From: an uncultured Clostridia bacterium
Lineage (GTDB): Bacteria; Bacillota; Clostridia; Christensenellales; Aristaeellaceae
Length of the DNA stretch: 64,000 nucleotides
NCBI GenBank assembly: GCA_946414315.1
Contig: CAMKNZ010000001.1
Coordinates: forward strand, 1 to 64,000
Direction of reading: 5' to 3'
In this document: one piece after another, positions 34,227 through 48,111 of the stretch
How the letters are laid out: every line of letters starts with the position of its first letter
Numbering within the stretch: position 1 is the stretch's first letter
Notes under the pieces: generated by a model
Databases searched by the model: none
Told to the model about the DNA's origin: nothing
The model's input: the letters and a program-made list of their open reading frames with translations, nothing else
Made by a program: the position numbers and the translations under genes

Positions 34227-35633
34227 TCACTCCGACAGCCGGCGTTCGAACCGGTCCTTCCGGGTATCGGCGGGGATCTCCGTCGGATATTCGCCGGTAA
34301 AACAGGCGTGGCAGTAAAGATCCGGTCCGGTCAGCGTCCAGAGCTCTTCCGCCGGAAGATAGCCCAGGGAATCAGCCCCGATGATCTCCGCGATCTCTTC
34401 CACCGTATGATGGCAGGCGATCAGGTGCTCCTGGGAATCGATATCCGTGCCGTAATAACAGGGATGCAGGAACGGCGGCGAGGAGATACGCATATGGATT
34501 TCCTTCGCTCCCGCTTCCCGCAGCAGGCTCACGATCCGCCCGCTGGTCGTACCGCGGACGATGGAATCGTCGATCAGCACGACGCGTTTCCCCCGGATCA
34601 CGTCTTCAATGGCGGACAGCTTGATCTTTACCTGGTCCAGCCGGTGATCCGGCGCGATGAACGTCCGGCCGATATATTTGTTTTTGATCAGCCCGATGCC
34701 GTACGGAATGCCGGATGCCCGGCTGTAACCCAGCGCCGCGTCCAGGCCGGAATCCGGCACACCGATCACCAGGTCCGCGTCCACCGGATGCGCCTTGGCC
34801 AGGCATTCCCCGGCACGGATCCTGGCGGAATGGACGGAGATGCCGTCCAGCACCGAATCAGGCCGGGCAAAATAGATATATTCAAAGATACAGTGGCGCG
34901 GCTGTTTCCGGCCGCAGTGTTCCTTCCGGCTCTGTACGCCTTCCTTGCTGAAGACGATGATCTCGCCCGGTTCCACATCCCGGACCATCTTTGCGCCAAC
35001 CGCGTGCAGCGCGCAGCTTTCCGACGCGACGATCCAGGTTCCGTCCTCCTTCTGTCCGTAACACAGCGGACGGAAACCGTACGGATCCCTTGCGCAGATC
35101 AGCTTCTGCGGAGACATCAGCACCAGGGAATAGGCACCGTCCAGTCTGTTCATGGCACGGCTGAGCGCTTCCTCGATGGAGGGAGCGTTCAGTCTTTCCT
35201 GGGTAATGATATAGGCAATGGTTTCCGTATCGCTGGAGGTGTGAAAAATCGCGCCCTTCATCTCAAGGGCGGACCGGAGTTCCGCGGCGTTGGAAAGATT
35301 GCCGTTATGCGCCAGGGCCATATGGCCCTTCTGATGGTTCACTTCAATGGGCTGGCAGTTGTTCCGGTTCGTGCCGCCGGTGGTGCCGTAGCGGGTATGC
35401 CCCACCGCCATGGTTCCTGCCGGTAAAGAATGAAGGATATCGCCGGTAAAGACTTCTCCCACCAGGCCGATATCCTTGTGTGATACAAATACACCGTCGT
35501 CATTGACCACGATCCCGCAGCTTTCCTGTCCCCTGTGCTGCAGGGAATATAATCCGAAATAAACCAGGCTCGCAACGTCCTCCGGCTGCTGCGCCATAAC
35601 GCCGAATACGCCGCACTCCTCGTGTATGCTCAT
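34227..35633 (-). CDS. purF: amidophosphoribosyltransferase
   Basis: This 468-residue enzyme makes phosphoribosylamine from PRPP using the amide of glutamine, the first step of purine synthesis. The N-terminus MSIHEECGVFG places the nucleophile Cys at residue 7 behind a short propeptide. The glutaminase shows HTRYGTTG and AHNGNLSN; the PRPP loop is VVLIDDSIVRGTTSG. Cys residues later in the chain (CYYGTDI, CHACFTGEYP) match the Fe-S-containing Bacillus-type enzyme. It follows gltD by 19 bases, an uncommon position that places a glutamine consumer in the nitrogen operon. Confidence 0.95.
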   Translation of the reverse strand: MSIHEECGVFGVMAQQPEDVASLVYFGLYSLQHRGQESCGIVVNDDGVFVSHKDIGLVGEVFTGDILHSLPAGTMAVGHTRYGTTGGTNRNNCQPIEVNHQKGHMALAHNGNLSNAAELRSALEMKGAIFHTSSDTETIAYIITQERLNAPSIEEALSRAMNRLDGAYSLVLMSPQKLICARDPYGFRPLCYGQKEDGTWIVASESCALHAVGAKMVRDVEPGEIIVFSKEGVQSRKEHCGRKQPRHCIFEYIYFARPDSVLDGISVHSARIRAGECLAKAHPVDADLVIGVPDSGLDAALGYSRASGIPYGIGLIKNKYIGRTFIAPDHRLDQVKIKLSAIEDVIRGKRVVLIDDSIVRGTTSGRIVSLLREAGAKEIHMRISSPPFLHPCYYGTDIDSQEHLIACHHTVEEIAEIIGADSLGYLPAEELWTLTGPDLYCHACFTGEYPTEIPADTRKDRFERRLSE

Positions 35634-35652: not shown

Positions 35653-37053
35653 TCATTTCAGCCAGGCGTCGATCTCCCGGGCGGCGTTCCGTCCGTCCGC
35701 CAGCGCGCGTACGACCAGGCTCTGGCCGTTCCGCATATCGCCCGCGCTGAAAAGCCTGCCTTCCAGGTGATGGCTTCCGTCCTCCGGCAGCAGCCGTCCC
35801 CGGCCGTCCGCTTTCAGGGCAAAACGGTCCAGCGTTCTTTCTTCACAGCCGACAAAGCCCGCCGCGATCAGCAGCAGTCCGCATTTCAGCGTCTGTTCGC
35901 TGCCTGCCACCTGCTCAAACCTGCCTTCCGGCGTCCGCTGCAGTTTCACTGTTTCCAGTCCGGAAATGTGTCCCCACTCGTCCGTCAGGATCTGCTTCAC
36001 CGTGGTCTCATAAATCCGGGGATCGCTGCCTTGGCGGAAGATCGCTTCAACCTGGCCGTAGTCCGTGCGCAGGGTCCGCGGCCATTCAGGCCAGGGATTG
36101 CCCGGCGTCCTGTCTTCCGGCGGAGCCGGCATCATCTCCAGCTGCGTCACGGAGGCGCAGCCCTGGCGTAAAGCGGTACCCACGCAGTCGTTGCCCGTAT
36201 CGCCGCCGCCGACCACAACCACATCCAGGTCCTTTGCGGACGTTTCGGACGCCGATTTGCTGATCACCGCCCGGGTCGCCGCCGTCAGATAATCCACGGC
36301 GAACATCACGCCCTGGGCGTCCATATGTTCTACGTTCAGGCTCCGGGGCCTCCGCGCGCCGCCGCAAAGCAGCACCGCGTCGTATCCCTGCAGTTCCTCC
36401 GGAATTGCTTCGGTATTCAGTTTAAAGCAGACGCCTTCAGCCTCCATCAGGCGGATACGGCGTTCCACGATCTCCTTGGGCAGCTTCATGTTCGGAATAC
36501 CGTACATGAGCAGGCCGCCGGCCCGGTCCGCTTTTTCGATCACGGTAACCTCGTGTCCCAGCTGGTTCAGCAGGTCTGCCGCCGCCAGGCCGGAAGGTCC
36601 GCTGCCGATTACGGCCACACGTTTTCCCGTGCGGGCCGCCGGGATCCGGGGCTGGATCCAGCCCTTGGCGAACCCGGTCTCGATCAGATACAGTTCGTTA
36701 TCCCGGTTGGTAACGCAGTCGTTCTCCAGGTTGCACGCTTTTTCGCACAGTGCCGGGCAGACGTGTCCTGTAAATTCCGGGAAGGGTGCCGTCTGCAGCA
36801 GGCGCTTCAGTGCCTCCCTTTCCTGGCCGCGGTACAGCAGATCGTTCCACTCCGGGATCAGGTTATGCAGCGGGCATCCGAAATCAGACTGGCAGAAAGG
36901 CACGCCGCAGTTCATGCAGCGGGACGCCTGCGCGCATCTGGCCTCGCATCCCTGCGCGATATGCAGGTCTTCGAAGTCGCCCAGTCGTTCCGCTTCATTC
37001 CGGAAGGGATTTTCTATTCTTACTGTGTCCAGAAATCCTGTCGCGCTGCCCAC
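35653..37053 (-). CDS. gltD: glutamate synthase small subunit
   Basis: This 466-residue NAD(P)H-dependent oxidoreductase feeds electrons to the large subunit. The N-terminal Fe-S cluster cysteines are in CEARCAQASRCMNCGVPFC and CPALCEKACNLEN. FAD binding is at VAVIGSGPSGLAAADLL and the NADPH site at VVVVGGGDTGNDCVG. Full length for the family. It starts 4 bases after the gltB stop and is followed by purF. Confidence 0.96.
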   Translation of the reverse strand: MGSATGFLDTVRIENPFRNEAERLGDFEDLHIAQGCEARCAQASRCMNCGVPFCQSDFGCPLHNLIPEWNDLLYRGQEREALKRLLQTAPFPEFTGHVCPALCEKACNLENDCVTNRDNELYLIETGFAKGWIQPRIPAARTGKRVAVIGSGPSGLAAADLLNQLGHEVTVIEKADRAGGLLMYGIPNMKLPKEIVERRIRLMEAEGVCFKLNTEAIPEELQGYDAVLLCGGARRPRSLNVEHMDAQGVMFAVDYLTAATRAVISKSASETSAKDLDVVVVGGGDTGNDCVGTALRQGCASVTQLEMMPAPPEDRTPGNPWPEWPRTLRTDYGQVEAIFRQGSDPRIYETTVKQILTDEWGHISGLETVKLQRTPEGRFEQVAGSEQTLKCGLLLIAAGFVGCEERTLDRFALKADGRGRLLPEDGSHHLEGRLFSAGDMRNGQSLVVRALADGRNAAREIDAWLK

Positions 37054-37057
37054 AGTC

Positions 37058-40000
37058 TCACGCTCCCTTCATCCAGTTCAGGTATTCGTCTGAGATAACG
37101 GCTTTGAATTTCGGCAGCCAGTCGCTGAAGTGTTCCAGGATCTCCCGGGCTTTCTGCGATCCGGTAGCCTTTGCGTGCATCTCCAGCAGGCGGTTCAGTT
37201 CATCCGCCTGTCCCGCTGATACGTCATACAGTTTGACGTGGCCGGTGTTCAGCCGGCTTTCCAGCTGTCCGTCCTCATCCAGCACCCAGGCGATGCCGCC
37301 GGACATACCTGCGGCAAAGTTGTCGCCCACGGGTCCCAGCACGGCCACCCGGCCTCCGGTCATATATTCGCATCCGTGGTCGCCCACGCCCTCAACGACT
37401 GCCCATGCGCCGGAATTGCGCACGGCGAAACGCTCGCCCGCCATGCCGGCTACAAAGGCATATCCGCTCGTCGCGCCGTACAGCGCCACGTTGCCGATCA
37501 GGGTATCTTCCTTTTTCCAGATGCTGTCCGCGGGCGGGCATACCGCCAGCGTCCCGCCGGACAGGCCCTTGCCCAGGTAGTCGTTCGCCACGCCGTAGAG
37601 CGTGATCTCCTGACCGCGGGGCAGGAACGCGCCGAAGCTCTGTCCGCCGCAGCCCTGGGCCTGGATATGCCGCTCGCCCTTCAGCATCGTGCCGAAGGCC
37701 CGGTCGGTGGTCATCAGATGCACATGGTCCTGATACAGCCGCGCGTCCGCACGTTCCGCCAGGCGGAAGTCATGTTTCGCTTCCGGTTGGAAATGCGTAT
37801 TCCGGGCAAAGCCGGTCAGGTCGGAAAGATCCATCGCCGCGCTGTCCTTCACCGCCAGCAGGTCGCTGCGGCCCACCAGTTCGTTCACGGAGCGCGCGCC
37901 GAGCTTCGCCATGATCTCCCGCATCTGTTCTGCGATAAAGAGCATGAACCGCTCCACATATTCCGGTTTTCCCTTGAAACGCCTGCGCAGCTCGGGATTC
38001 TGGGTCGCGATACCGAAGGGGCAGGTGCCCAGCTGGCACACGCGCATCATCCGGCAGCCCATGGTTACCAGCGGGGCTGTCGCAAAGCCGAACTGCTCCG
38101 CGCCCAGCAGCAGTGCCACCATGACGTCATGACCGGTCATCAGCTTGCCGTCGGTTTCCAGCGTCACCGTCTGCCTCAGCCGGTTGCGGCAGAGCACCTG
38201 GTGCGCTTCCGCCAGGCCGATCTCCCAGGGAAGGCCCGCATGATGCACGCTGCTCATGGGTGCCGCACCGGTGCCGCCCTCGCCGCCGGAAATCAGGATG
38301 CCGCCGGCGCCGGCCTTGGCCACGCCGCTGGCTATGGTGCCCACGCCCGCGGACGCCACCAGTTTCACGGTAATCTTTGCGTCCTCGTTGGCGCACTGCA
38401 GGTCATAGATCAGTTCCGCCAGGTCCTCAATCGAATAGATATCATGATGCGGCGGCGGAGAGATCAGGGAGATTCCCGGAGTGGAGCAGCGGGTCTTCGC
38501 CACGCTGTCGGTCACCTTCGCGCCGGGCAGGTGTCCGCCTTCGCCGGGCTTGGCGCCCTGGGCCATCTTGATCTGGATTTCTTTGGCTGAAAGCAGGTAT
38601 TCCCGCGTCACGCCAAAACGGCCGGAGGCTACCTGCTTGATTGCGCTGTTCAGTTCCGTGCCGAAGCGTTCCGGCAGTTCGCCGCCTTCACCGCTGTTGG
38701 AACGGCCGCCCAGCCGGTTCATGGCCTTCGCCATGCACTCATGGGCTTCCTGGGAGATGGAACCGTAGCTCATCGCGCCGGTCCGGAAGCGTTTCACGAT
38801 CTCGCTTGCCGGTTCCACTTCGTCCAGCGGGATTTCCCGGCAAGCGTCAAACCGGAAGGAGAGCATGGAGCGGATCGTCCGCGGTCCTTCGTTCTCCACC
38901 CGCGCAGCATATTTGTCAAAGGTCGCACGGTCGTCCGTCCATACCGCCTGTTGCAGCAGATGGATGGTTTCGGGAGCATAGAGGTGCTCTTCGGCGCCTT
39001 CTCCTCTTCTGTACTTATGTTTGCCCACGCTGGGCAATCCTGCCGCCGCGTGATCCGCGAAGGCAGCGTCATGATGGAAGCGGCTGTCCGCCTCCACCCG
39101 GCTCAGGTCGGTTCCGCCGAGGGAGCACGGGGTATTCGTGAAATAGGTTTCCACAAACCCGGCGTCCAGGCCCACGGCCTCGAACAGCTGGGCGCTCTGG
39201 TACGCCTGCAGTACGGACACGCCCATCTTGGAGGCGATCTTCAGCACGCCGGCCGTCAGCGCCTTGTCATAGTCGCGGATCGCTTCTTCCGGCGTCTTGC
39301 CGATCTGCCCGTCCTCACACATCCCGCGGATGCAGGCATGGGCCAGGTACGGGTTCACCGCCCGGGCGCCGAAGGCGATCAGCATCGCCAGCTGATGCAC
39401 GTCCCGGGGCTCGCCGCTTTCCAGGATGACGGAAACCGCGGTGCGCTTTTTGATCCGGATCAAGTGCTGCTCCAGGGCGGAAACCGCCAGCAGCGACGGG
39501 ATCGCCATCTTTTCCGGGCCAATGCCCCGGTCGGACAGGATCAGGATATTGATCTGATCACGGCACGCCTGGTCGCACACGCTGAAAAAGTTATCCAGCG
39601 CGTCCCGCAGGCTGCCTTTTTTGTCATAGAGCAGGGAAACCGTACGCACGGAGAAGTCTTCGTGCTTCATTTCCCGGATCCGCTGCAGTTCCTCTTCGGT
39701 CAGCACCGGTGTCGGAAGCTCCAGCACGGCGCTGTTCGCAGCTTCCCGCGAAAGCAGGTTGCCGTCGTCGCCCACATAGATGGAGCAGTCAGTCTTGACC
39801 GCTTCCCGCAGCGCGTCGATCGGCGGGTTTGTCACCTGCGCGAAACGCTGGCGGAAATAATCGTACACGGACGGATGGGTCTTCGACAGCGCCGCCACCG
39901 GCACGTCCGCGCCCATGGAGACGATGGGCTCGGTGCCCTTCGCCGCCATCGGAAGCACCACGTCCTGCATGTCTTCCCATGTATAGTTGAACGCTCTGCA

Positions 40001-41377
40001 GAGCTTTTCTCTCTTTTCTTCATCCGGATCTTCCGCCGGCGCTTCGGTCCGGGGCAGATCCTCCAGGCGCACCAGTTTCTTCATCCATTCGGTATAGGGA
40101 TGCTCCTGGGCAAAGCGGGACTTCAGGTCTCCGCTTTCCGTAAGACGGCCGGTCTTCAGGTCCGCTTCCAGCACGTCGCCGGCCTTCAGCTTCCACCGGC
40201 GCAGGATATGGGCATTCTCCTCAAACAGTACGCCTGCCTCGGAGGTCAGGATCAGGCGCCGGTCGTCCGTCAGCGCGCAGCGCAGCGGCCGCAGGCCGTT
40301 CCGGTCCAGGGACGCGCACACCGTGTCGCCGTCGGAATACAGGATCGCCGCGGGACCGTCCCAGGGCTCCATCATCGTGGCATAGTAGCGGTACAGGTCT
40401 TTCCACGCCGTTTCCTTTTTCTGGCCCTGCCAGGGTTCGGGCAGCAGGATCATGCCTGCCAGTGGCAGCGGGAATCCGTTCATTGCCAGGAACTCCAGCG
40501 TATTGTCCAGCATCTGGCTGTCGCTTCCGTCGTTGTCGACCACAGGCAGCACGCGCCGCATCTCCGCACCCATAACCTCGGAGCGCATAGTCTCCTCCCG
40601 GGCCTTCATGCGGTCATGGTTGCCGCGGATTGTATTGATCTCGCCGTTGTGCAGGAGCATCCGCTGGGGATGGGCCTTGCTCCAGGACGGGAACGTGTTG
40701 GTAGAGAAACGGGAATGCACCATCGCCATGCTGCTGGCGTAGCGCACGTCCTGCAGATCGTCATAGAAAGAGCGCAGCTGGTTCACCAGCATCATGCCCT
40801 TGTAGACGATCGTACGGCTGGACAGGGAGCAGACATAGGCGTCCGTGTCCTGGTGTTCAAAAACACGCCGTAAAATATAAAGCCGCCGGTCAAAGTCCTG
40901 ACCGGCTGCGGTCTCCTTCGGCCTTTTCAAAAAACACTGTCGGATACACGGCATCGTCCGCCGTGCGCCTGCGCCCAGCTGGGCCGGGTGGCAGGGTACT
41001 TCCCGCCACCCGAGCACCTGGATCCCTTCGGATTCCGCCAGCTGTTCGAAAATTCCGGCTGTATTCCGGGCGCCGACCTCATCCTCCGGCAGGAAGAACA
41101 TGCCCACGCCGTAGTCTCCCGGATTGCCCAGGGCAATACCCTCTTCCCGGGCCCAGGCCGCAAAGAGCGTGTGGGGCAGCTGCGTCATAATGCCTACGCC
41201 GTCGCCGGTGGTCCCCTGCGCGTCGCTGCCCGCCCGGTGCGCCAGCCGCTCAACAATGCACAGCGCCTGGTCCACCGTCCGGTGGGTCGCTTTCGCATTC
41301 AGGTCCACCACGGCGCCCACGCCGCAGCTGTCATGTTCCAGTTCTTCATGATAAAGAGGATACTGTCGGTCCCTCAT
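37058..41377 (-). CDS. gltB: glutamate synthase large subunit
   Basis: This 1439-residue enzyme converts glutamine and 2-oxoglutarate to two glutamates. A class II amidotransferase domain begins at the nucleophile in HDSCGVG (Cys 18, so a 17-residue propeptide). A central domain and the FMN synthase domain follow (GGRSNSGEGGE, ISGGEGGTGA), then the 3Fe-4S cluster CRMMRVCQLGTCPFG. The GXGXG beta-helix domain ends the protein (GGRVAVLGPVGDNFAAGMSGG). A gap of 75 bases separates it from the ANTAR gene. Long antisense open frames here are GC shadows. Confidence 0.97.
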   Translation of the reverse strand: MRDRQYPLYHEELEHDSCGVGAVVDLNAKATHRTVDQALCIVERLAHRAGSDAQGTTGDGVGIMTQLPHTLFAAWAREEGIALGNPGDYGVGMFFLPEDEVGARNTAGIFEQLAESEGIQVLGWREVPCHPAQLGAGARRTMPCIRQCFLKRPKETAAGQDFDRRLYILRRVFEHQDTDAYVCSLSSRTIVYKGMMLVNQLRSFYDDLQDVRYASSMAMVHSRFSTNTFPSWSKAHPQRMLLHNGEINTIRGNHDRMKAREETMRSEVMGAEMRRVLPVVDNDGSDSQMLDNTLEFLAMNGFPLPLAGMILLPEPWQGQKKETAWKDLYRYYATMMEPWDGPAAILYSDGDTVCASLDRNGLRPLRCALTDDRRLILTSEAGVLFEENAHILRRWKLKAGDVLEADLKTGRLTESGDLKSRFAQEHPYTEWMKKLVRLEDLPRTEAPAEDPDEEKREKLCRAFNYTWEDMQDVVLPMAAKGTEPIVSMGADVPVAALSKTHPSVYDYFRQRFAQVTNPPIDALREAVKTDCSIYVGDDGNLLSREAANSAVLELPTPVLTEEELQRIREMKHEDFSVRTVSLLYDKKGSLRDALDNFFSVCDQACRDQINILILSDRGIGPEKMAIPSLLAVSALEQHLIRIKKRTAVSVILESGEPRDVHQLAMLIAFGARAVNPYLAHACIRGMCEDGQIGKTPEEAIRDYDKALTAGVLKIASKMGVSVLQAYQSAQLFEAVGLDAGFVETYFTNTPCSLGGTDLSRVEADSRFHHDAAFADHAAAGLPSVGKHKYRRGEGAEEHLYAPETIHLLQQAVWTDDRATFDKYAARVENEGPRTIRSMLSFRFDACREIPLDEVEPASEIVKRFRTGAMSYGSISQEAHECMAKAMNRLGGRSNSGEGGELPERFGTELNSAIKQVASGRFGVTREYLLSAKEIQIKMAQGAKPGEGGHLPGAKVTDSVAKTRCSTPGISLISPPPHHDIYSIEDLAELIYDLQCANEDAKITVKLVASAGVGTIASGVAKAGAGGILISGGEGGTGAAPMSSVHHAGLPWEIGLAEAHQVLCRNRLRQTVTLETDGKLMTGHDVMVALLLGAEQFGFATAPLVTMGCRMMRVCQLGTCPFGIATQNPELRRRFKGKPEYVERFMLFIAEQMREIMAKLGARSVNELVGRSDLLAVKDSAAMDLSDLTGFARNTHFQPEAKHDFRLAERADARLYQDHVHLMTTDRAFGTMLKGERHIQAQGCGGQSFGAFLPRGQEITLYGVANDYLGKGLSGGTLAVCPPADSIWKKEDTLIGNVALYGATSGYAFVAGMAGERFAVRNSGAWAVVEGVGDHGCEYMTGGRVAVLGPVGDNFAAGMSGGIAWVLDEDGQLESRLNTGHVKLYDVSAGQADELNRLLEMHAKATGSQKAREILEHFSDWLPKFKAVISDEYLNWMKGA

Positions 41378-41452: not shown

Positions 41453-41980
41453 CTACTTATTCTCCGAGTCCAGAATCCGCTGTGCAAATTCTGCCATCTT
41501 CATTCCATGGTTCATCGCATACTGCTGCATGGTCCTGTGGGCTTCCGGTTCAGAAAGCCCCTTCTGTTTCATGAGCACGGCTTTCGCGCGTTCCACGATA
41601 TCCTTGCTTTCTCCGGTCCGCCGCGGCAGTTTCATGCGGTGCAGCTGTGAAAGCATCTCCACCGCGCCGATCACAGCCTGCCCGGAGGCCGGCATCGTCA
41701 GCTTGAAGATCTCCGGCGATTCAATGTTTTCCAGCACCGGCTGTTTGGCGATCAGCAGGATCTGTACGCTGTCCCTGTAGTCCCAGACCAGTTCATCCGG
41801 TTTGCAGTCCGGCGTATAACCGACCATCACCACAACACAGTCTTCGCTTTCACTCAGTGCCCGCCGCAGTTCGCTTCCCGATGAACAGCTGCGGAATACC
41901 TGATATCCGGAGGAGATAAGCAGCCGGTAAAGCTTTGTTCGGCTGTCATCAGACTGGCTGACAATGACTATCCTGGCCAC
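41453..41980 (-). CDS. ANTAR-domain antiterminator with degenerate receiver
   Basis: This 175-residue protein has an N-terminal receiver-like domain (ARIVIVSQSDDSRTKLY, CVVVMVGYTPD) and a C-terminal ANTAR RNA-binding domain (IVERAKAVLMKQKGLSEPEA, MNHGMKMAEFAQRIL). The strand that should end in the phosphoacceptor Asp ends VVMVGY, so phosphorylation there is doubtful. I chose GTG 41980, which sits 8 bases after a perfect AAGGAGG; GTG 41989 overlaps that site. Family knowledge: ANTAR proteins bind hexaloop hairpins and prevent termination. It lies between glnA and gltB on the same strand. Confidence 0.9.
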   Translation of the reverse strand: MARIVIVSQSDDSRTKLYRLLISSGYQVFRSCSSGSELRRALSESEDCVVVMVGYTPDCKPDELVWDYRDSVQILLIAKQPVLENIESPEIFKLTMPASGQAVIGAVEMLSQLHRMKLPRRTGESKDIVERAKAVLMKQKGLSEPEAHRTMQQYAMNHGMKMAEFAQRILDSENK

Positions 41981-41998
41981 AGATCGCACCTCCTTGTC

Positions 41999-42043: not shown

Positions 42044-42047
<4 letters not shown>
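41999..42047. other. inverted repeat across the glnA-ANTAR gap
   Basis: TTAATTCTGA (41999-42008) and TCAGAATTAA (42038-42047) form perfect 10-base arms 29 bases apart. The distal arm covers the glnA stop codon. No T-tract follows on minus, so read-through into the ANTAR gene is likely. Confidence 0.45.
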
Positions 42048-43375
<1,328 letters not shown>

Positions 43376-43404
43376 AATGCTGACCTCCTATCGTCAATAC
43401 AAAG

Positions 43405-43443
43405 AGGGCAAGGTGCATCGCTTAGCACGACACCCTTGCCCTG
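43405..43443 (-). promoter_or_regulatory. glnA leader hairpin with ANTAR-type hexaloop
   Basis: Read on minus, AGGGCAAGG (43442-43434) pairs with CCTTGCCCT (43413-43405). The following tract is only CTTTGTATT, so terminator strength is uncertain. Its 5' arm overlaps CAGGGC-[AAGGGT]-GTCGTG (43443-43426), a hairpin with loop A1 and G4. The same string with compensating changes occurs in the dapL leader. A second hairpin GTGC-TAAGCGAT-GCAC lies inside. Confidence 0.7.
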
Positions 43444-43451
43444 ATGGGCGT

Positions 43452-43480
43452 ATCCTATCACCCGTCTTTCGGCCTGTCAA
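43452..43480 (-). promoter_or_regulatory. glnA promoter
   Basis: On minus, TTGACA (43480-43475), a 17-base spacer and TAGGAT (43457-43452). Confidence 0.85.
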
Positions 43481-43533
43481 TCCCTCCGATTGTTTTCCCT
43501 TTGTATTCGCGTTTCCCGCCGATCCTTTCAACC

Positions 43534-43562
43534 TTGACAAGCAGTTAGTTGAATGTTACCAT
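43534..43562 (+). promoter_or_regulatory. dapL promoter
   Basis: TTGACA (43534-43539), a 17-base spacer and TACCAT (43557-43562). It is divergent from the glnA promoter with about 54 bases between the -35 boxes. Confidence 0.8.
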
Positions 43563-43570
43563 ACCTCCCA

Positions 43571-43614
43571 ACAAGGCAAGGGCGTCCTGTCAAAGGATTG
43601 ACCTGCCTTGTTTT
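43571..43614 (+). terminator. dapL leader attenuator with two ANTAR-type hexaloop hairpins
   Basis: ACAAGGC (43571-43577) and GCCTTGT (43605-43611), with AGG/CCT inside, form a terminator followed by TTTTATTGTTT. The competing fold has two tandem hairpins: GGC-[AAGGGC]-GTC (43575-43586, extended by CA/TG across a mismatch) and GTCA-[AAGGAT]-TGAC (43589-43602). Both loops have six bases with A1 and G4, which is the full ANTAR dual-hairpin signature. Confidence 0.75.
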
Positions 43615-43633
43615 ATTGTTTGGAGGTGATACC

Positions 43634-44818
43634 ATGCTGACGCCAAACCTCAGCTACGCGAATCTGAAAGAGTCCTACCTCTTCTATCATATTGCCCAGA
43701 AGACCAAAGCCTACCTGGAGGCCAACCCGGACAAGCATCTCTACCGCATGGGGATCGGAGACGTTTCCCTCCCGCTGGCGCCCGCGGTCATCACCGCGCT
43801 GCATGAAGCAGTGGACGACCAGAGTGAAAAAGCCCGCTTCCACGGTTATATGCCGGAATGCGGCGCGCCTTTCCTCCGGGAAATCATCGCGCAATACTAC
43901 GGAAAGCGCGGCGTATCCCTGGCCTCGGACGAAGTGTTTGTTTCCAGCGGCGCCAGTGATGAACTGGGCGACCTGCTCGACCTCTTTGATAAGTCGAACC
44001 GTGCCCTGATCATGGAGCCGGCCTACCCCGCCTATGTGGACGCCAATACCATGGCCGGCCGGGAGATCGTACATCTTCCCTCCAGCCCGGACGATCATTT
44101 CCTGCCTCTGCCGAAAGAAGGCCTGGAAGCGGATCTGATCTATCTGTGCTCCCCGAACAATCCCACCGGCGCGGCTTATAACCGGGAACAGCTTTCCCAA
44201 TGGGTCTCCTGGGCGAACGCCCGCGGCGCGGTAATCCTCTTCGATGCCGCCTATGAAGCTTTTATCGAAGAAGACCTGCCCCACAGCATTTTTGAAATCC
44301 CCGGTGCGCGGACCTGCGCGATCGAGATCTGCTCCCTGTCCAAGACGGCAGGCTTCACCGGCACCCGGCTCGGATATACCGTGATCCCGAAGGATCTGGA
44401 ACGCAGCGGTATGAACCTGAACGCCATGTGGGTACGGAACCGTACCACCAAGACCAACGGCATCTCCTATATCCTTCAGCGGGGCGGTGCCGCCGTCTTC
44501 ACGGAGGAAGGCCAGAAGCAGATCCATGACAATATCAGGATCTACAAGGAAAACGCCCGGGTGCTCATGGCAGCCCTGGACGAAGCCGGCATCCGCTACT
44601 GGGGTGGAAAGAACGCACCTTATATCTGGATGCAGTGCCCGGACGGCATGGGCAGCTGGGAATTCTTCGACAAGCTCCTGAATGAAATCCAGGTCGTCGG
44701 TACGCCCGGTGAGGGCTTCGGCGCCTGCGGTGAAGGATTCTTCCGCTTCTCCACTTTCGGCGATCCCGCCGATACCCGCGAAGCCGCCTCCCGGCTCCTG
44801 AAACTGCTTAAAAAGTAA
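43634..44818 (+). CDS. dapL: LL-diaminopimelate aminotransferase-like enzyme
   Basis: This is a 394-residue PLP enzyme of fold type I. The motifs YRMGIGDVSLPLAPAVITAL, FHGYMPECGAPFLRE, VFVSSGASDELGDLLDLF and YPAYVDANTMAGRE match the DapL family, and the PLP lysine lies in SLSKTAGFTGTRLGY. DapL makes LL-diaminopimelate from tetrahydrodipicolinate using glutamate as amino donor, for lysine and peptidoglycan. The nitrogen-linked leader fits the demand for glutamate. ATG 43634 follows GGAGGTGAT. A related aromatic or aspartate aminotransferase role cannot be fully excluded. Confidence 0.9.
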   Translation: MLTPNLSYANLKESYLFYHIAQKTKAYLEANPDKHLYRMGIGDVSLPLAPAVITALHEAVDDQSEKARFHGYMPECGAPFLREIIAQYYGKRGVSLASDEVFVSSGASDELGDLLDLFDKSNRALIMEPAYPAYVDANTMAGREIVHLPSSPDDHFLPLPKEGLEADLIYLCSPNNPTGAAYNREQLSQWVSWANARGAVILFDAAYEAFIEEDLPHSIFEIPGARTCAIEICSLSKTAGFTGTRLGYTVIPKDLERSGMNLNAMWVRNRTTKTNGISYILQRGGAAVFTEEGQKQIHDNIRIYKENARVLMAALDEAGIRYWGGKNAPYIWMQCPDGMGSWEFFDKLLNEIQVVGTPGEGFGACGEGFFRFSTFGDPADTREAASRLLKLLKK

Positions 44819-44987: not shown

Positions 44988-46568
44988 ATGTGTTCCATCT
45001 TTGGTATGACCGGTTCCCGGGTACCCCGGGACCTGCTTGAAACCTGTTTTAAACGCACCATCTCCCGCGGCCCGGACATGACCCGCACGATTGACATTCC
45101 CGGCGGTATGCTGGGTTTCCACCGCCTGGCCATCATGGGCCTGCATGAAGAAGGCATGCAGCCCTTTCAGCTGGAAGACGATTATGTAGTCTGCAACGGC
45201 GAGCTTTACGGCTTCCGTCCCTTACGGGCCCGGCTCATGGAAACCTATCCGATCAAGAGCGAATGCGACTGCGAGATCCTGCTTCCCCTCTACCGTGAAT
45301 ACGGCGTGGAGATGTTCAAAACCCTGGATGCGGAATTCGCCCTGATCCTCTGGGACGGCCGGCAGCAGAAGCTCATCGCCGCCCGGGATCCCATCGGCAT
45401 CCGTCCCCTCTATTACGGCAAGACCCACGACGGCGGTATGATTTTCGCCAGCGAGCCGAAAAACCTGGTCGGCCTGTGCGAAACCATCCTTCCCTTCCCG
45501 CCCGGCTATTACTGGATCGACGGTGAATTCGTCCAGTATGCGGATCCCGCCTATGTCGGATACTTCACCATGAAATCCGAAGAGGAAGTCTGCTCCAAGC
45601 TGCGCCGGCTCCTGATGGACGGCGTGGAAAAGCGGCTGGACGCGGACGCCCCGGTCGGTTTCCTGCTTTCCGGCGGCCTGGATTCCTCCCTGGTCTGCGC
45701 CATCGCCCAGAAGATCCTGAACAAGCCGATCCGCACCTTCGCCATCGGCATGGATATCGACGCCATCGACCTGAAGTACGCCCGTATGGTCGCGGACTAT
45801 ATCGGCAGCGAGCATACGGAAGTCATCATCAGCGAAAAGGACGTGCTGGATGCCCTGCCCACAGTGGTCGAACTGCTGGGCACCTGGGACATCACCACCA
45901 TCCGCGCGTCCATCGGTATGTACCTGGTCTGCAAATGGATCCATGAGAACACGGACGTCCGGGTGCTGCTGACCGGTGAGATTTCCGATGAACTCTTCGG
46001 CTATAAATACACGGATTTTGCACCCTCCGCCGCCGCCTTCCAGGAAGAAGCGGAAAAGCGCATCCGGGAACTGAACGCCTACGACGTGCTCCGGGCGGAC
46101 CGCTGCATCTCCGTCAACTCCCTGGAAGCCCGGGTTCCTTTCGGCGACCTGAAGTTTGTCCGTTACGCCATGAGCGTCGACCCGGAACTGAAGATGAACC
46201 GTCATAACATGGGCAAATATCTGATCCGTAAAGCCTTCGCCGATGACCACATCCTGCCGGATGAAATCCTCTGGCGCCAGAAGGCCGCTTTCTCCGACGC
46301 CGTCGGCCACAGCATGGTCAACGACCTGAAAGCGCTCGCGGAAAGAACATACACAGACAAGGAATTTGAGGAGAAGGCGGCGAAATACGATTACTGCCGT
46401 CCCTTTACGAAGGAGAGCCTCCTCTACCGGGAGCTGTTCGAGCAGTATTATCCCGGCCAGGCTCACATGATCCCCGGCTTCTGGATGCCGAACAAAGACT
46501 GGCCCGGATGCAACGTGGATGATCCCTCCGCAAGGGTACTGTCAAACTATGGTAACAGCGGAGTGTAA
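44988..46568 (+). CDS. asnB: asparagine synthase (glutamine-hydrolysing)
   Basis: This 526-residue enzyme makes asparagine from aspartate with the amide of glutamine. The start MCSIFGMTG puts the nucleophile Cys at residue 2, and the glutaminase shows HRLAIMG and [13 protein letters not shown]. The synthetase domain has the PP-loop [12 protein letters not shown] and [13 protein letters not shown]. The length matches the short AsnB/eukaryotic-like group. The ribosome site TTGGAGGA fixes ATG 44988. It is followed by guaA after a single base. Confidence 0.95.
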
Positions 46569-46569
46569 A

Positions 46570-48111
46570 ATGCAAAAAGAACTGATCCTGATCCTGGACT
46601 TCGGCGGCCAGTATACCCAGCTGATCGCCCGCCGCGTCCGCGAATGTCACGTCTATTCAGAAGTAATCCCCTGGAATACGCCCCTTGCGGATATCCTCGC
46701 CCGGAATCCCAAGGGCGTCATCCTTTCCGGCGGTCCCTCCAGCGTCCATGACGAAGGCGCGCCTCGGATCGATCCCGCCCTGTATGAGGCAGGTATTCCG
46801 GTTCTGGGCATCTGCTACGGAATGCAGCTGACCGCCCTGCTGCTGGGCGGCAGCGTGGAACGTGCCAAAGAGCGTGAATACGGCCGGATCACTGTCCGGA
46901 TGAAGGAACAGGCCGGCCTGCTGGGCGGCATGAAACCTGCTTCCAGCTGCTGGATGAGCCATACCTGGCAGGTCAGCGCCTGCCCGGACGGCTTCCGCGT
47001 CATCGCGGAAACGGACAACTGTCCCGTCGCCGCCATGATCAACGAGGAAAAGAAGATCTGCTGCGTGCAGTTCCATCCGGAGGTCACCCATACTGAGGAC
47101 GGCAACATGCTGATCCGCAATTTCCTGTTCCGTTTCTGCGGCTGCTCCGGTGACTGGACCATGAGCGCCTTTGCCGAGACCGCTATTCAGCAGATCCGGG
47201 ACACGGTCGGCGAAGACGGCACCGTCCTCCTGGCCCTGTCCGGCGGCGTGGATTCTTCCGTCGTGGCCGCCCTGATCTATAAAGCCATCGGCAAGCGGCT
47301 CACCTGCGTTTTCGTGGACCACGGCCTCCTGCGCAAAGGCGAAAGCGACCAGGTCTGCCATGTGTTCAGCCATCTCTTCCCGGTACGCTTCATCCGGTCG
47401 GATGCCGCGGACCGCTTCTTCGCGGACCTGAAGGGCGTCACCGAACCGGAGGAAAAGCGGCACATCATTGGCCGGGACTTTATTGAAGTATTCAAGAAAG
47501 AAGCGACAGCCTTGGGCAAGATGGACTACTTTGCCCAGGGCACCATCTATCCGGATGTGATCGAGAGCGGCCAGGGCACCAACGCCGCCGTCATCAAGAG
47601 CCATCACAACGTGGGCGGCCTGCCGAAGGAACTCGGCTTCACCGAGCTCATTGAGCCCCTGCGCATGCTCTTCAAGGATGAAGTCCGCGCCCTGGGCGAA
47701 GCCCTGGGCCTCCCCCGCGAGCTCGTCTGGCGCCAGCCCTTCCCCGGCCCCGGCATCGCAATCCGGATCATCGGGGAGGTCACCCCGGAGAAGGCGGAGA
47801 TCGTCCGTGAAAGCGACGCCATCTTCCGGGAGGAGATCGCCGCTGCCGGTCTGGACAAGCATGTAAACCAATACTTTACCGTCCTTACCGGCATCCAGAG
47901 CGTCGGCGTCATGGGCGACGAACGCACCTATGACTACACCATCGCCCTGCGGGCCGTCACCACTGACGACTTCATGACCGCCGACTGGGCGCGCCTTCCC
48001 TACGACCTCATCGCCCGGGTCTCCGCCCGTATCGTCAATGAGGTTCCCCACGCCAGCCGCGTCGTCCTGGATGTCACAACCAAACCCCCGGCAAGCATTG
48101 AGTGGGAGTGA
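46570..48111 (+). CDS. guaA: GMP synthase (glutamine-hydrolysing)
   Basis: This 513-residue enzyme converts XMP to GMP using glutamine. A class I amidotransferase domain comes first ([18 protein letters not shown], nucleophile in [19 protein letters not shown]-like [11 protein letters not shown]). The ATP-pyrophosphatase domain follows ([26 protein letters not shown]) and a dimerisation domain ends in [11 protein letters not shown]. All are intact. It starts one base after the asnB stop, so the pair is one transcript of glutamine-consuming enzymes. No purine riboswitch is seen upstream. Confidence 0.97.

Follow-up and report, generated by a model that had tools for sequence, protein, structure and literature searches.

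A single-hexaloop leader linked to an ANTAR gene precedes glutamine-economy genes in uncultured Clostridia: a candidate 5' transcription attenuator

The divergent genes glnA and dapL in the window (the whole 64,000-nucleotide stretch of DNA that was analysed) are each preceded by a short leader in which a hexaloop hairpin, P1, is nested in an intrinsic terminator. Judged from sequence, leaders of this kind recur among relatives with their promoters, their terminators and the loop letters A1 and G4, lack a conserved second hexaloop, stand before a set of functionally linked genes and tend to occur together with an ANTAR gene. We consider it probable that the leader is a 5' attenuator, and that the ANTAR protein encoded beside glnA binds the single P1, antiterminates and sets a common level for the glutamine economy. 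With less assurance, we lean towards a more specific reading in which a single hexaloop at the RNA 5' end, enclosed by the terminator, suffices, the regulon is family-wide (glutamine synthetase (GS), glutamate synthase (GOGAT), amidotransferases, DapL and ammonium transport), and the regulator is non-phosphorylated, encoded with GS and possibly signalled by it. ANTAR control of GS/GOGAT is already known from NitR, whose gene we take to lie beside glnA in Clostridium saccharobutylicum. The one-hairpin architecture and a glutamine-economy regulon that is wider than local are new.

The window belongs to a 2.24-Mb assembly that is 60% complete, and the relatives compared with it are metagenome-assembled genomes of uncultured Clostridia, several with rumen or gut labels. 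Two divergent gene runs, glnA-ANTAR-gltB-gltD-purF on the minus strand and dapL-asnB-guaA on the plus strand, leave the region between glnA and dapL (Table 1), and each run is presumed to be an operon. In some relatives without dapL at the locus, asnB sits right after the P1 leader.

Table 1. Genes, promoters and leader elements of the two divergent runs (window coordinates)
Feature	Position	Strand	Basis or remark
glnA, type I glutamine synthetase	42044..43375	-	TIGR00653
ANTAR protein (NitR-like), adjoins glnA 3'	41453..41989	-	PF03861; receiver-like half without phospho-acceptor Asp
gltB, glutamate synthase large subunit, 3' of ANTAR gene	37058..41377	-	translation by eye; synteny in relatives
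gltD, glutamate synthase small subunit	35653..37053	-	by eye; homologue L113 profiled; synteny
purF, amidophosphoribosyltransferase, last gene of minus-strand run	34227..35633	-	TIGR01134
dapL, LL-diaminopimelate aminotransferase	43634..44818	+	TIGR03542
asnB, glutamine-hydrolysing asparagine synthase, 3' of dapL	44988..46568	+	profile and synteny
guaA, glutamine-hydrolysing GMP synthase, last gene of plus-strand run	46519..48111	+	profile and synteny
glnA promoter, -35 TTGACA	43475..43480	-	promoter scan
glnA promoter, -10 TAGGAT	43452..43457	-	promoter scan
glnA-leader P1, CAGGGC-AAGGGT-GTCGTG (core GGC-AAGGGT-GTC)	43426..43443	-	sequence; kept in relatives
glnA-leader terminator stem-loop, uses P1 5' arm, loop and 3' arm	43405..43442	-	fold -26.2 kcal/mol, z -5.1
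dapL promoter, -35 TTGACA	43534..43539	+	promoter scan
dapL promoter, -10 TACCAT	43557..43562	+	promoter scan
dapL-leader P1, CAAGGC-AAGGGC-GTCCTG (core GGC-AAGGGC-GTC)	43572..43589	+	sequence; kept in relatives
dapL-leader terminator (stem-loop 43572-43610, then TTTT)	43572..43614	+	fold -19.0 kcal/mol, z -3.6
Second hairpin of initial annotation in dapL leader, GTCA-AAGGAT-TGAC	43589..43602	+	present, unconserved, judged fortuitous

A promoter scan revealed sigma-70-type promoters ahead of both genes, each matching the consensus at 10/12 positions with a 17-nt spacer (2 found against a mean of 0.2 in shuffles). The hexaloop hairpins that the initial annotation had placed behind the two promoters were found there. 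They take the form CARGRC-AARGGN-GYC and begin 8 nt (glnA) or 9 nt (dapL) after the -10, suggesting that transcription starts near the hairpin foot. The 15-letter pattern CARGRCAARGGNGYC has 8 matches in the assembly, compared to 0 for the reversed pattern. By eye, three of the eight are preceded by a promoter, ahead of glnA, dapL and glmS, and the remaining five resemble coding or structural-RNA sequence. Rfam searches gave no family at the gathering threshold in the window or in 20 leader-bearing loci, and none up to E=10 in 43300-43700. A stretch of the DNA between the divergent promoters (window ~43488-43510) is conserved as well, reading GCGAATACAAAGGGAAAACAATC on the glnA strand, and many relatives have it in the corresponding position. 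It may serve both promoters as an operator or activator site, a possible second, DNA-level control.

P1 is strongly conserved. We examined 50 glnA upstream regions chosen by gene content, namely 30 (the window and 29 genus loci found via the ANTAR protein, some of them identical across the stretch: L033, L035, L036 and L037; L053 and L059) and 20 from 20 genomes of other genera of the family in which the ANTAR gene adjoins glnA. The latter were picked from 38 ANTAR matches by omitting loci with a distant or no nearby glnA, so the test covers ANTAR-linked glnA of that type. In each region we first located the promoter and then accepted any hexaloop lying 4-21 nt beyond the -10, whatever its loop letters. 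A three-pair hexaloop was present in 46 of the 50 regions, 11-14 nt after the -10, with A1, A2 and G4 in 46/46, G5 in 45/46 and all four letters at position 6. In the other four (L042, L268, L271, L274) the stem is broken and the letters AANGNN are retained at the same place. The A1/G4 hexaloop and its closing pairs are accordingly kept in relatives, as the initial annotation had anticipated, apart from these four, in which the letters alone are kept. At L060, where the ANTAR protein is just 29% identical, the loop reads AATGAC. Seven of 16 further relatives' loci were inspected; the glnA start was intact in five, each of which has the hexaloop.

A larger set comprised 91 distinct leaders. Its search patterns demand G4 and all but demand A1, and promoter-like sequence ahead was a condition for keeping many sites, so its counts for loop positions 1 and 4 and for promoters carry no independent weight. 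Within this set the spacing from the -10 is 11-12 nt in 78/91 leaders, loop position 3 is G in 73, A in 16 and T in 2, and all four letters occur at position 6. One dapL leader, that of L044, has G at loop position 1. Among the 91, the middle closing pair of P1 is G-U in 50 leaders, G-C in 32, A-U in 9 and never A-C. In an alignment of 50 leaders, which omits the glnA leaders of L042, L047 and L060 and the dapL leader of L058 (all four within the 91), the three closing pairs of P1 are paired in 150/150 cells under a selection pattern that nearly forces pairing, and the pair immediately outside them is unpaired in 44/50. The hairpin had been described as covarying. For P1 itself the covariation is weak, since the search patterns nearly impose the pairing; the terminator stem covaries clearly.

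The 5' arm and loop of P1 supply the 5' arm of the terminator, and the 3' arm of P1 forms part of the terminator's apical helix. As P1 lies inside this conserved terminator, the two folds are mutually exclusive. Across the 50-leader alignment 92% of the terminator stem cells are paired and 28 cells show a two-sided change, a level reached by 0/500 shuffles. The minimum-energy fold is of the terminator type in 54/54 leaders of one set and 90/91 of the other. The exception is the dapL leader of L058, which keeps the P1 sequence and has the terminator swapped for a longer inverted repeat built with the P1 3' side. Mean energies of -22.3 kcal/mol for the terminator and -3.7 kcal/mol for P1 alone suggest that P1 needs help to persist. 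A simple terminator scan of 43380-43640 detected none, although folding gives clear z-scores for both leaders (Table 1); the U-tract of the window's glnA terminator, CUCUUUGUAUUG, is weak. Folding and the covarying stem together bear out the earlier claim that a terminator overlaps the first hairpin. Conservation of the loop could partly serve the terminator, which pairs with its AAGG.

The initial annotation had also seen a paired-hexaloop architecture, on which the leader would be a canonical dual-hairpin ANTAR element with P1 and a following A1/G4 hexaloop both bound. We regard this as quite improbable. The dapL leader of the window can fold GTCA-AAGGAT-TGAC, yet as a conserved element this stem failed: 51% of its cells are paired among the 50 aligned leaders, compared to 38-56% in slid controls. 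Even in the closest relative (L032) the second hairpin is disrupted; in the window, its AGGA pairs in the terminator with UCCU, the P1 3' arm. A second A1/G4 hexaloop follows P1 in 5/50 distinct leaders against 1.6 by shuffling, a slight excess to which relatives' glnA leaders contribute four and, among the dapL leaders, the window's alone contributes. The other 45 have none, and promoter spacing leaves little room upstream of P1 for another hairpin. With the stem at control level and no second hexaloop in these 45, the second dapL hairpin and the paired architecture were given up. The eut leaders have two hairpins with a linker of 5-12 nt, and both are needed (PMC3369931); for EutV, both are required for antitermination in vivo (PMC3369931, PMC8934654). 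In the eutP leader, cutting the linker to 3 nt drastically lowered induction (PMC3369931), whereas in the window P1 and the second hairpin share the latter's 5' base. The same requirement means that one hairpin may not suffice here. The EutV dimer was reported to contact one hexaloop, and the structural work leaves open why two are needed when the dimer holds one (PMC8934654). As the second hairpin is unconserved, we read the leader as a single-hexaloop, 5'-terminal version. It falls outside the dual-hairpin family as that is defined, since the second hexaloop was looked for and not found, and it likely works like a member.

Loci beyond the genus show both forms. An ANTAR-linked glnA of another family (L249), which favours the dual form, has tandem A1/G4 hexaloops with 7-bp and 6-bp stems, indicating that the order contains the dual form and that the single form may be derived; the tandem form is possibly that of the ancestor. 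Single hexaloops inside terminators occur, partly as judged by eye, in another genus of the window's family (L233) and in a different family (L252). Among seven non-genus loci with the ANTAR gene just 3' of glnA, a clear A1/G4 hexaloop is present in L233, L243, L249 (dual) and L252 (by eye), doubtful in L247 and absent from L237 and L254. L245, L248 and L250 have a hexaloop by eye and no ANTAR gene in the stretch, which weakens a strict link between ANTAR gene and leader in those families.

The ANTAR protein matches PF03861 at E=8.8e-18 (64.3 bits against a cut-off of 27.3), and its gene is the only ANTAR match in the 60%-complete assembly. Among solved structures it comes closest to EutV (E=1e-7). 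EutV is phosphorylated; the protein here lacks the acceptor Asp. The place of EutV D54 is taken by V56 in the window, and none of 30 aligned proteins has Asp there (26 have I, L, V, A or M, the rest G or N), suggesting that phosphorylation, or an ordinary two-component input, is unlikely. Mapped by eye, the RNA-contact places of EutV are partly kept: M172 is M in 30/30, N173 is N or D in 28/30 and R177 is K or R in 29/30, and the window protein has other residues in place of K143, R168 and R175.

The ANTAR gene adjoins glnA in 28/29 genus loci, with gltB behind in 26/29, and the cluster recurs in other genera. Among 60 genomes of the family, the leader was matched (E up to 0.001) in 20/37 with an ANTAR gene compared to 1/23 without (Fisher p=6e-5, a value that ignores the kinship of these related genomes and comes from a model trained on two of the 60). 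Five of the 17 ANTAR-bearing genomes without a model match have a glnA leader on inspection (G302, G310, G314, G326, G330), with imperfect P1 stems in G330 and G314. For 37 genus genomes the ANTAR/leader table reads 29, 0, 3, 5 (p=1.3e-4, confounded by incomplete genomes), with G021 set to 'no leader', its only match (L136) having looked false. Leaders without a detected ANTAR gene occur in G005, G023 and G034 of the genus and in G316. With the hexaloop kept, the terminator overlapping it and the ANTAR gene adjoining glnA, the initial annotation's proposal of an ANTAR-linked, antitermination-type leader common to glnA and dapL stands.

The conserved 5' sequence might instead serve a different factor, either an RNA-binding protein distinct from the ANTAR protein or one acting on a DNA operator at about +1 to +20, which would set read-through or initiation; we consider this unlikely. 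The near-fixed distance to the -10 would fit an operator as well, the conservation goes beyond what P1 pairing needs, the space between the divergent promoters contains another conserved DNA element, and the four genomes with a leader and no detected ANTAR gene fit this account too. Against it, the terminator covaries as RNA, the middle P1 pair is never A-C, the constraint on A1 and G4 suits ANTAR targets, and the gene neighbourhood and co-occurrence described above tie the leader to the ANTAR gene. Still less likely, and in our judgement very improbable, is an ordinary factor-independent attenuator, in which short terminators merely lower transcription and the loop is conserved as a terminator arm. 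The far greater stability of the terminator and its pairing with the loop AAGG agree with such an arrangement. It accounts poorly for a 5' arm that is kept despite lost pairing (column 14 is A in 50/50, with its partner unpaired in 12), for loop positions 3 and 6 that vary while 1, 2, 4 and 5 hardly do, and for the recurrence of one 15-letter pattern, at loci unrelated to each other, ahead of genes with linked functions.

On the preferred reading, ANTAR-dependent attenuation through a single P1, each leader would act as a transcription attenuator that begins almost at the first nucleotide. The 5' end of the RNA would fold either as P1 (GRC-AANGNN-GYC) or as the far stronger intrinsic terminator. 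Without help the terminator would form, stopping transcription by default after ~45 nt; the ANTAR protein would capture the lone P1 as it emerges and hold it, and polymerase would pass. The outcome would be a shared level for glutamine synthetase, GOGAT and the glutamine and glutamate spenders DapL, AsnB, GlmS, PurF and PyrG. This would probably happen under a shortage of nitrogen or glutamine, and the operon of the ANTAR gene would be boosted by its own product. The same direction as for NitR is expected here, since NitR is reported to induce GS/GOGAT on nitrogen limitation; the presence in the regulon of enzymes that spend glutamine makes the opposite direction conceivable. The closeness of the ANTAR gene to glnA suggests, without proving, a possible role for glutamine synthetase itself in relaying the signal.

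The regulon extends beyond the two genes of the window. A covariance model built from the leader matched 40/45 genus genomes with 120 matches at E up to 0.05, the sole match in G021 looking false. We examined 44 of the 120 matches in 40 stretches; most others lie at known glnA, dapL or asnB loci, and five more loci were inspected. In 34 of the 44 the next gene, named from translations by eye with profile checks on representatives, belongs to nitrogen or glutamine metabolism or is a recurring PPDK-like gene: glmS (16), dapL (3), purF or a purF paralogue (3), gltD (2), glnA (2), asnB (2), the PPDK-like gene (2), gltB behind glnA remnants (2; L105, L121), purA (1) and pyrG (1). One more match, also ahead of pyrG (L132) and additional to the 34, is doubtful and was left out of the 91, its promoter not having been found by script; L097, also outside the 91, has a pyrG-like gene behind a promoter and P1. 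The window's own genome has the leader before glmS too. The initial annotation had thought of a local regulon of glnA and dapL: both genes belong to it, and 'local' does not hold, given glmS in this genome and asnB, gltB, gltD, purF, purA and pyrG in relatives. A related leader, GGC-AATGGC-GTC, precedes the ammonium transporter gene amt in another genus, and G316 has GAC-AAGGGC-GTC ahead of a purF-like gene. Model matches outside the family are weak (28 non-genus genomes, E up to 0.01). Upstream of gltB, the ANTAR gene, guaA and gltD in the fetched loci there are few hexaloop-pattern matches, mostly within coding sequence; one lies just ahead of the guaA start in L045.

Nine of the 44 examined matches were judged false by eye (seven in L123, L127, L128 and L129; one each in L136 and L138). 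L123, L127, L128 and L129 carry a repeated hairpin like the leader core, several copies lying beside an apparent REP-associated transposase gene; this element is probably a REP-type repeat unrelated to the leader. The window also encodes a PPDK_N-domain protein (PF01326; 31621-34209, plus strand) whose homologue has a P1-type leader in G034 and G036 (L118, L135); no exact P1-pattern match was found ahead of the window gene. At L105 and L121 the leaders before gltB are second copies of the glnA leader, most of glnA being lost with short remnants left, and at L121 most of the ANTAR gene is gone as well.

Leaders at asnB and glmS were also compared with other RNA elements. At L049, L053 and L054 the P1 leader is followed by a short ATG-bearing stretch like a dapL-start remnant and then by asnB, which suggests that dapL was lost and its leader captured by asnB. 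In other genera asnB is divergent from glnA and has a T-box leader (L255, 2204-2442, minus strand; RF00230, 56 bits, E=1.5e-11, below gathering). T-box-like sequence was recognised by eye before asnB in L256, L257, L259-L266, L268, L272-L274, L043 and L047, the last two giving no Rfam match at gathering, and asnB of L270 has P1. P1 and the T-box seem to replace each other at this gene. In 12 P1-led glmS loci (L066, L099, L100, L103, L109, L112, L115, L117, L120, L122, L130, L133) neither a glmS ribozyme nor any other Rfam family was found at gathering.

Known ANTAR systems share parts of this arrangement. NitR of Clostridium saccharobutylicum is described as an antiterminator that induces the GS/GOGAT genes on nitrogen limitation (PMC6316151). 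The present protein resembles it as a probable ANTAR regulator of GS/GOGAT genes whose gene sits in the glnA/GOGAT cluster. The present analysis differs in defining the leader, with one hexaloop inside the terminator, and in placing it also before dapL, asnB, glmS, purF, pyrG, purA and gltD. With EutV and the eut leaders of Enterococcus faecalis the system shares the ANTAR domain, A1/G4 hexaloops and a terminator that is exclusive with the bound hairpin; here, in contrast, there is one hairpin, at the RNA 5' end, and the terminator overlaps P1 rather than P2. The AmiR and NasR leaders likewise have a P1 loop with A1 and G4 and a terminator, which is distal (PMC3369936). In those leaders P1 stands apart from the terminator, on its upstream side, rather than nested in it as here, part of the linker is essential, and P2-like structures were recognised. 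Their signals arrive via AmiC or a NIT domain. In a covariance search, Ramesh 2012 predicted ANTAR targets at glutamine and glutamate synthase genes (PMC3369931), the same gene association as in our leaders. Since the motif in that search was defined with two hairpins, single-hexaloop leaders of the present kind would probably have been left unmatched. Among the matches listed in the open-access literature, no description of a single-hexaloop glutamine-gene leader was found.

Many genera of one family thus have ~45-nt leaders that appear to manage with one hexaloop, and searches with dual-hairpin models would probably miss such leaders. For uncultured Clostridia of the gut and rumen, the system is a candidate nitrogen circuit in which the supply of glutamine would be tied to wall precursors, through glmS and dapL, via one RNA signal.
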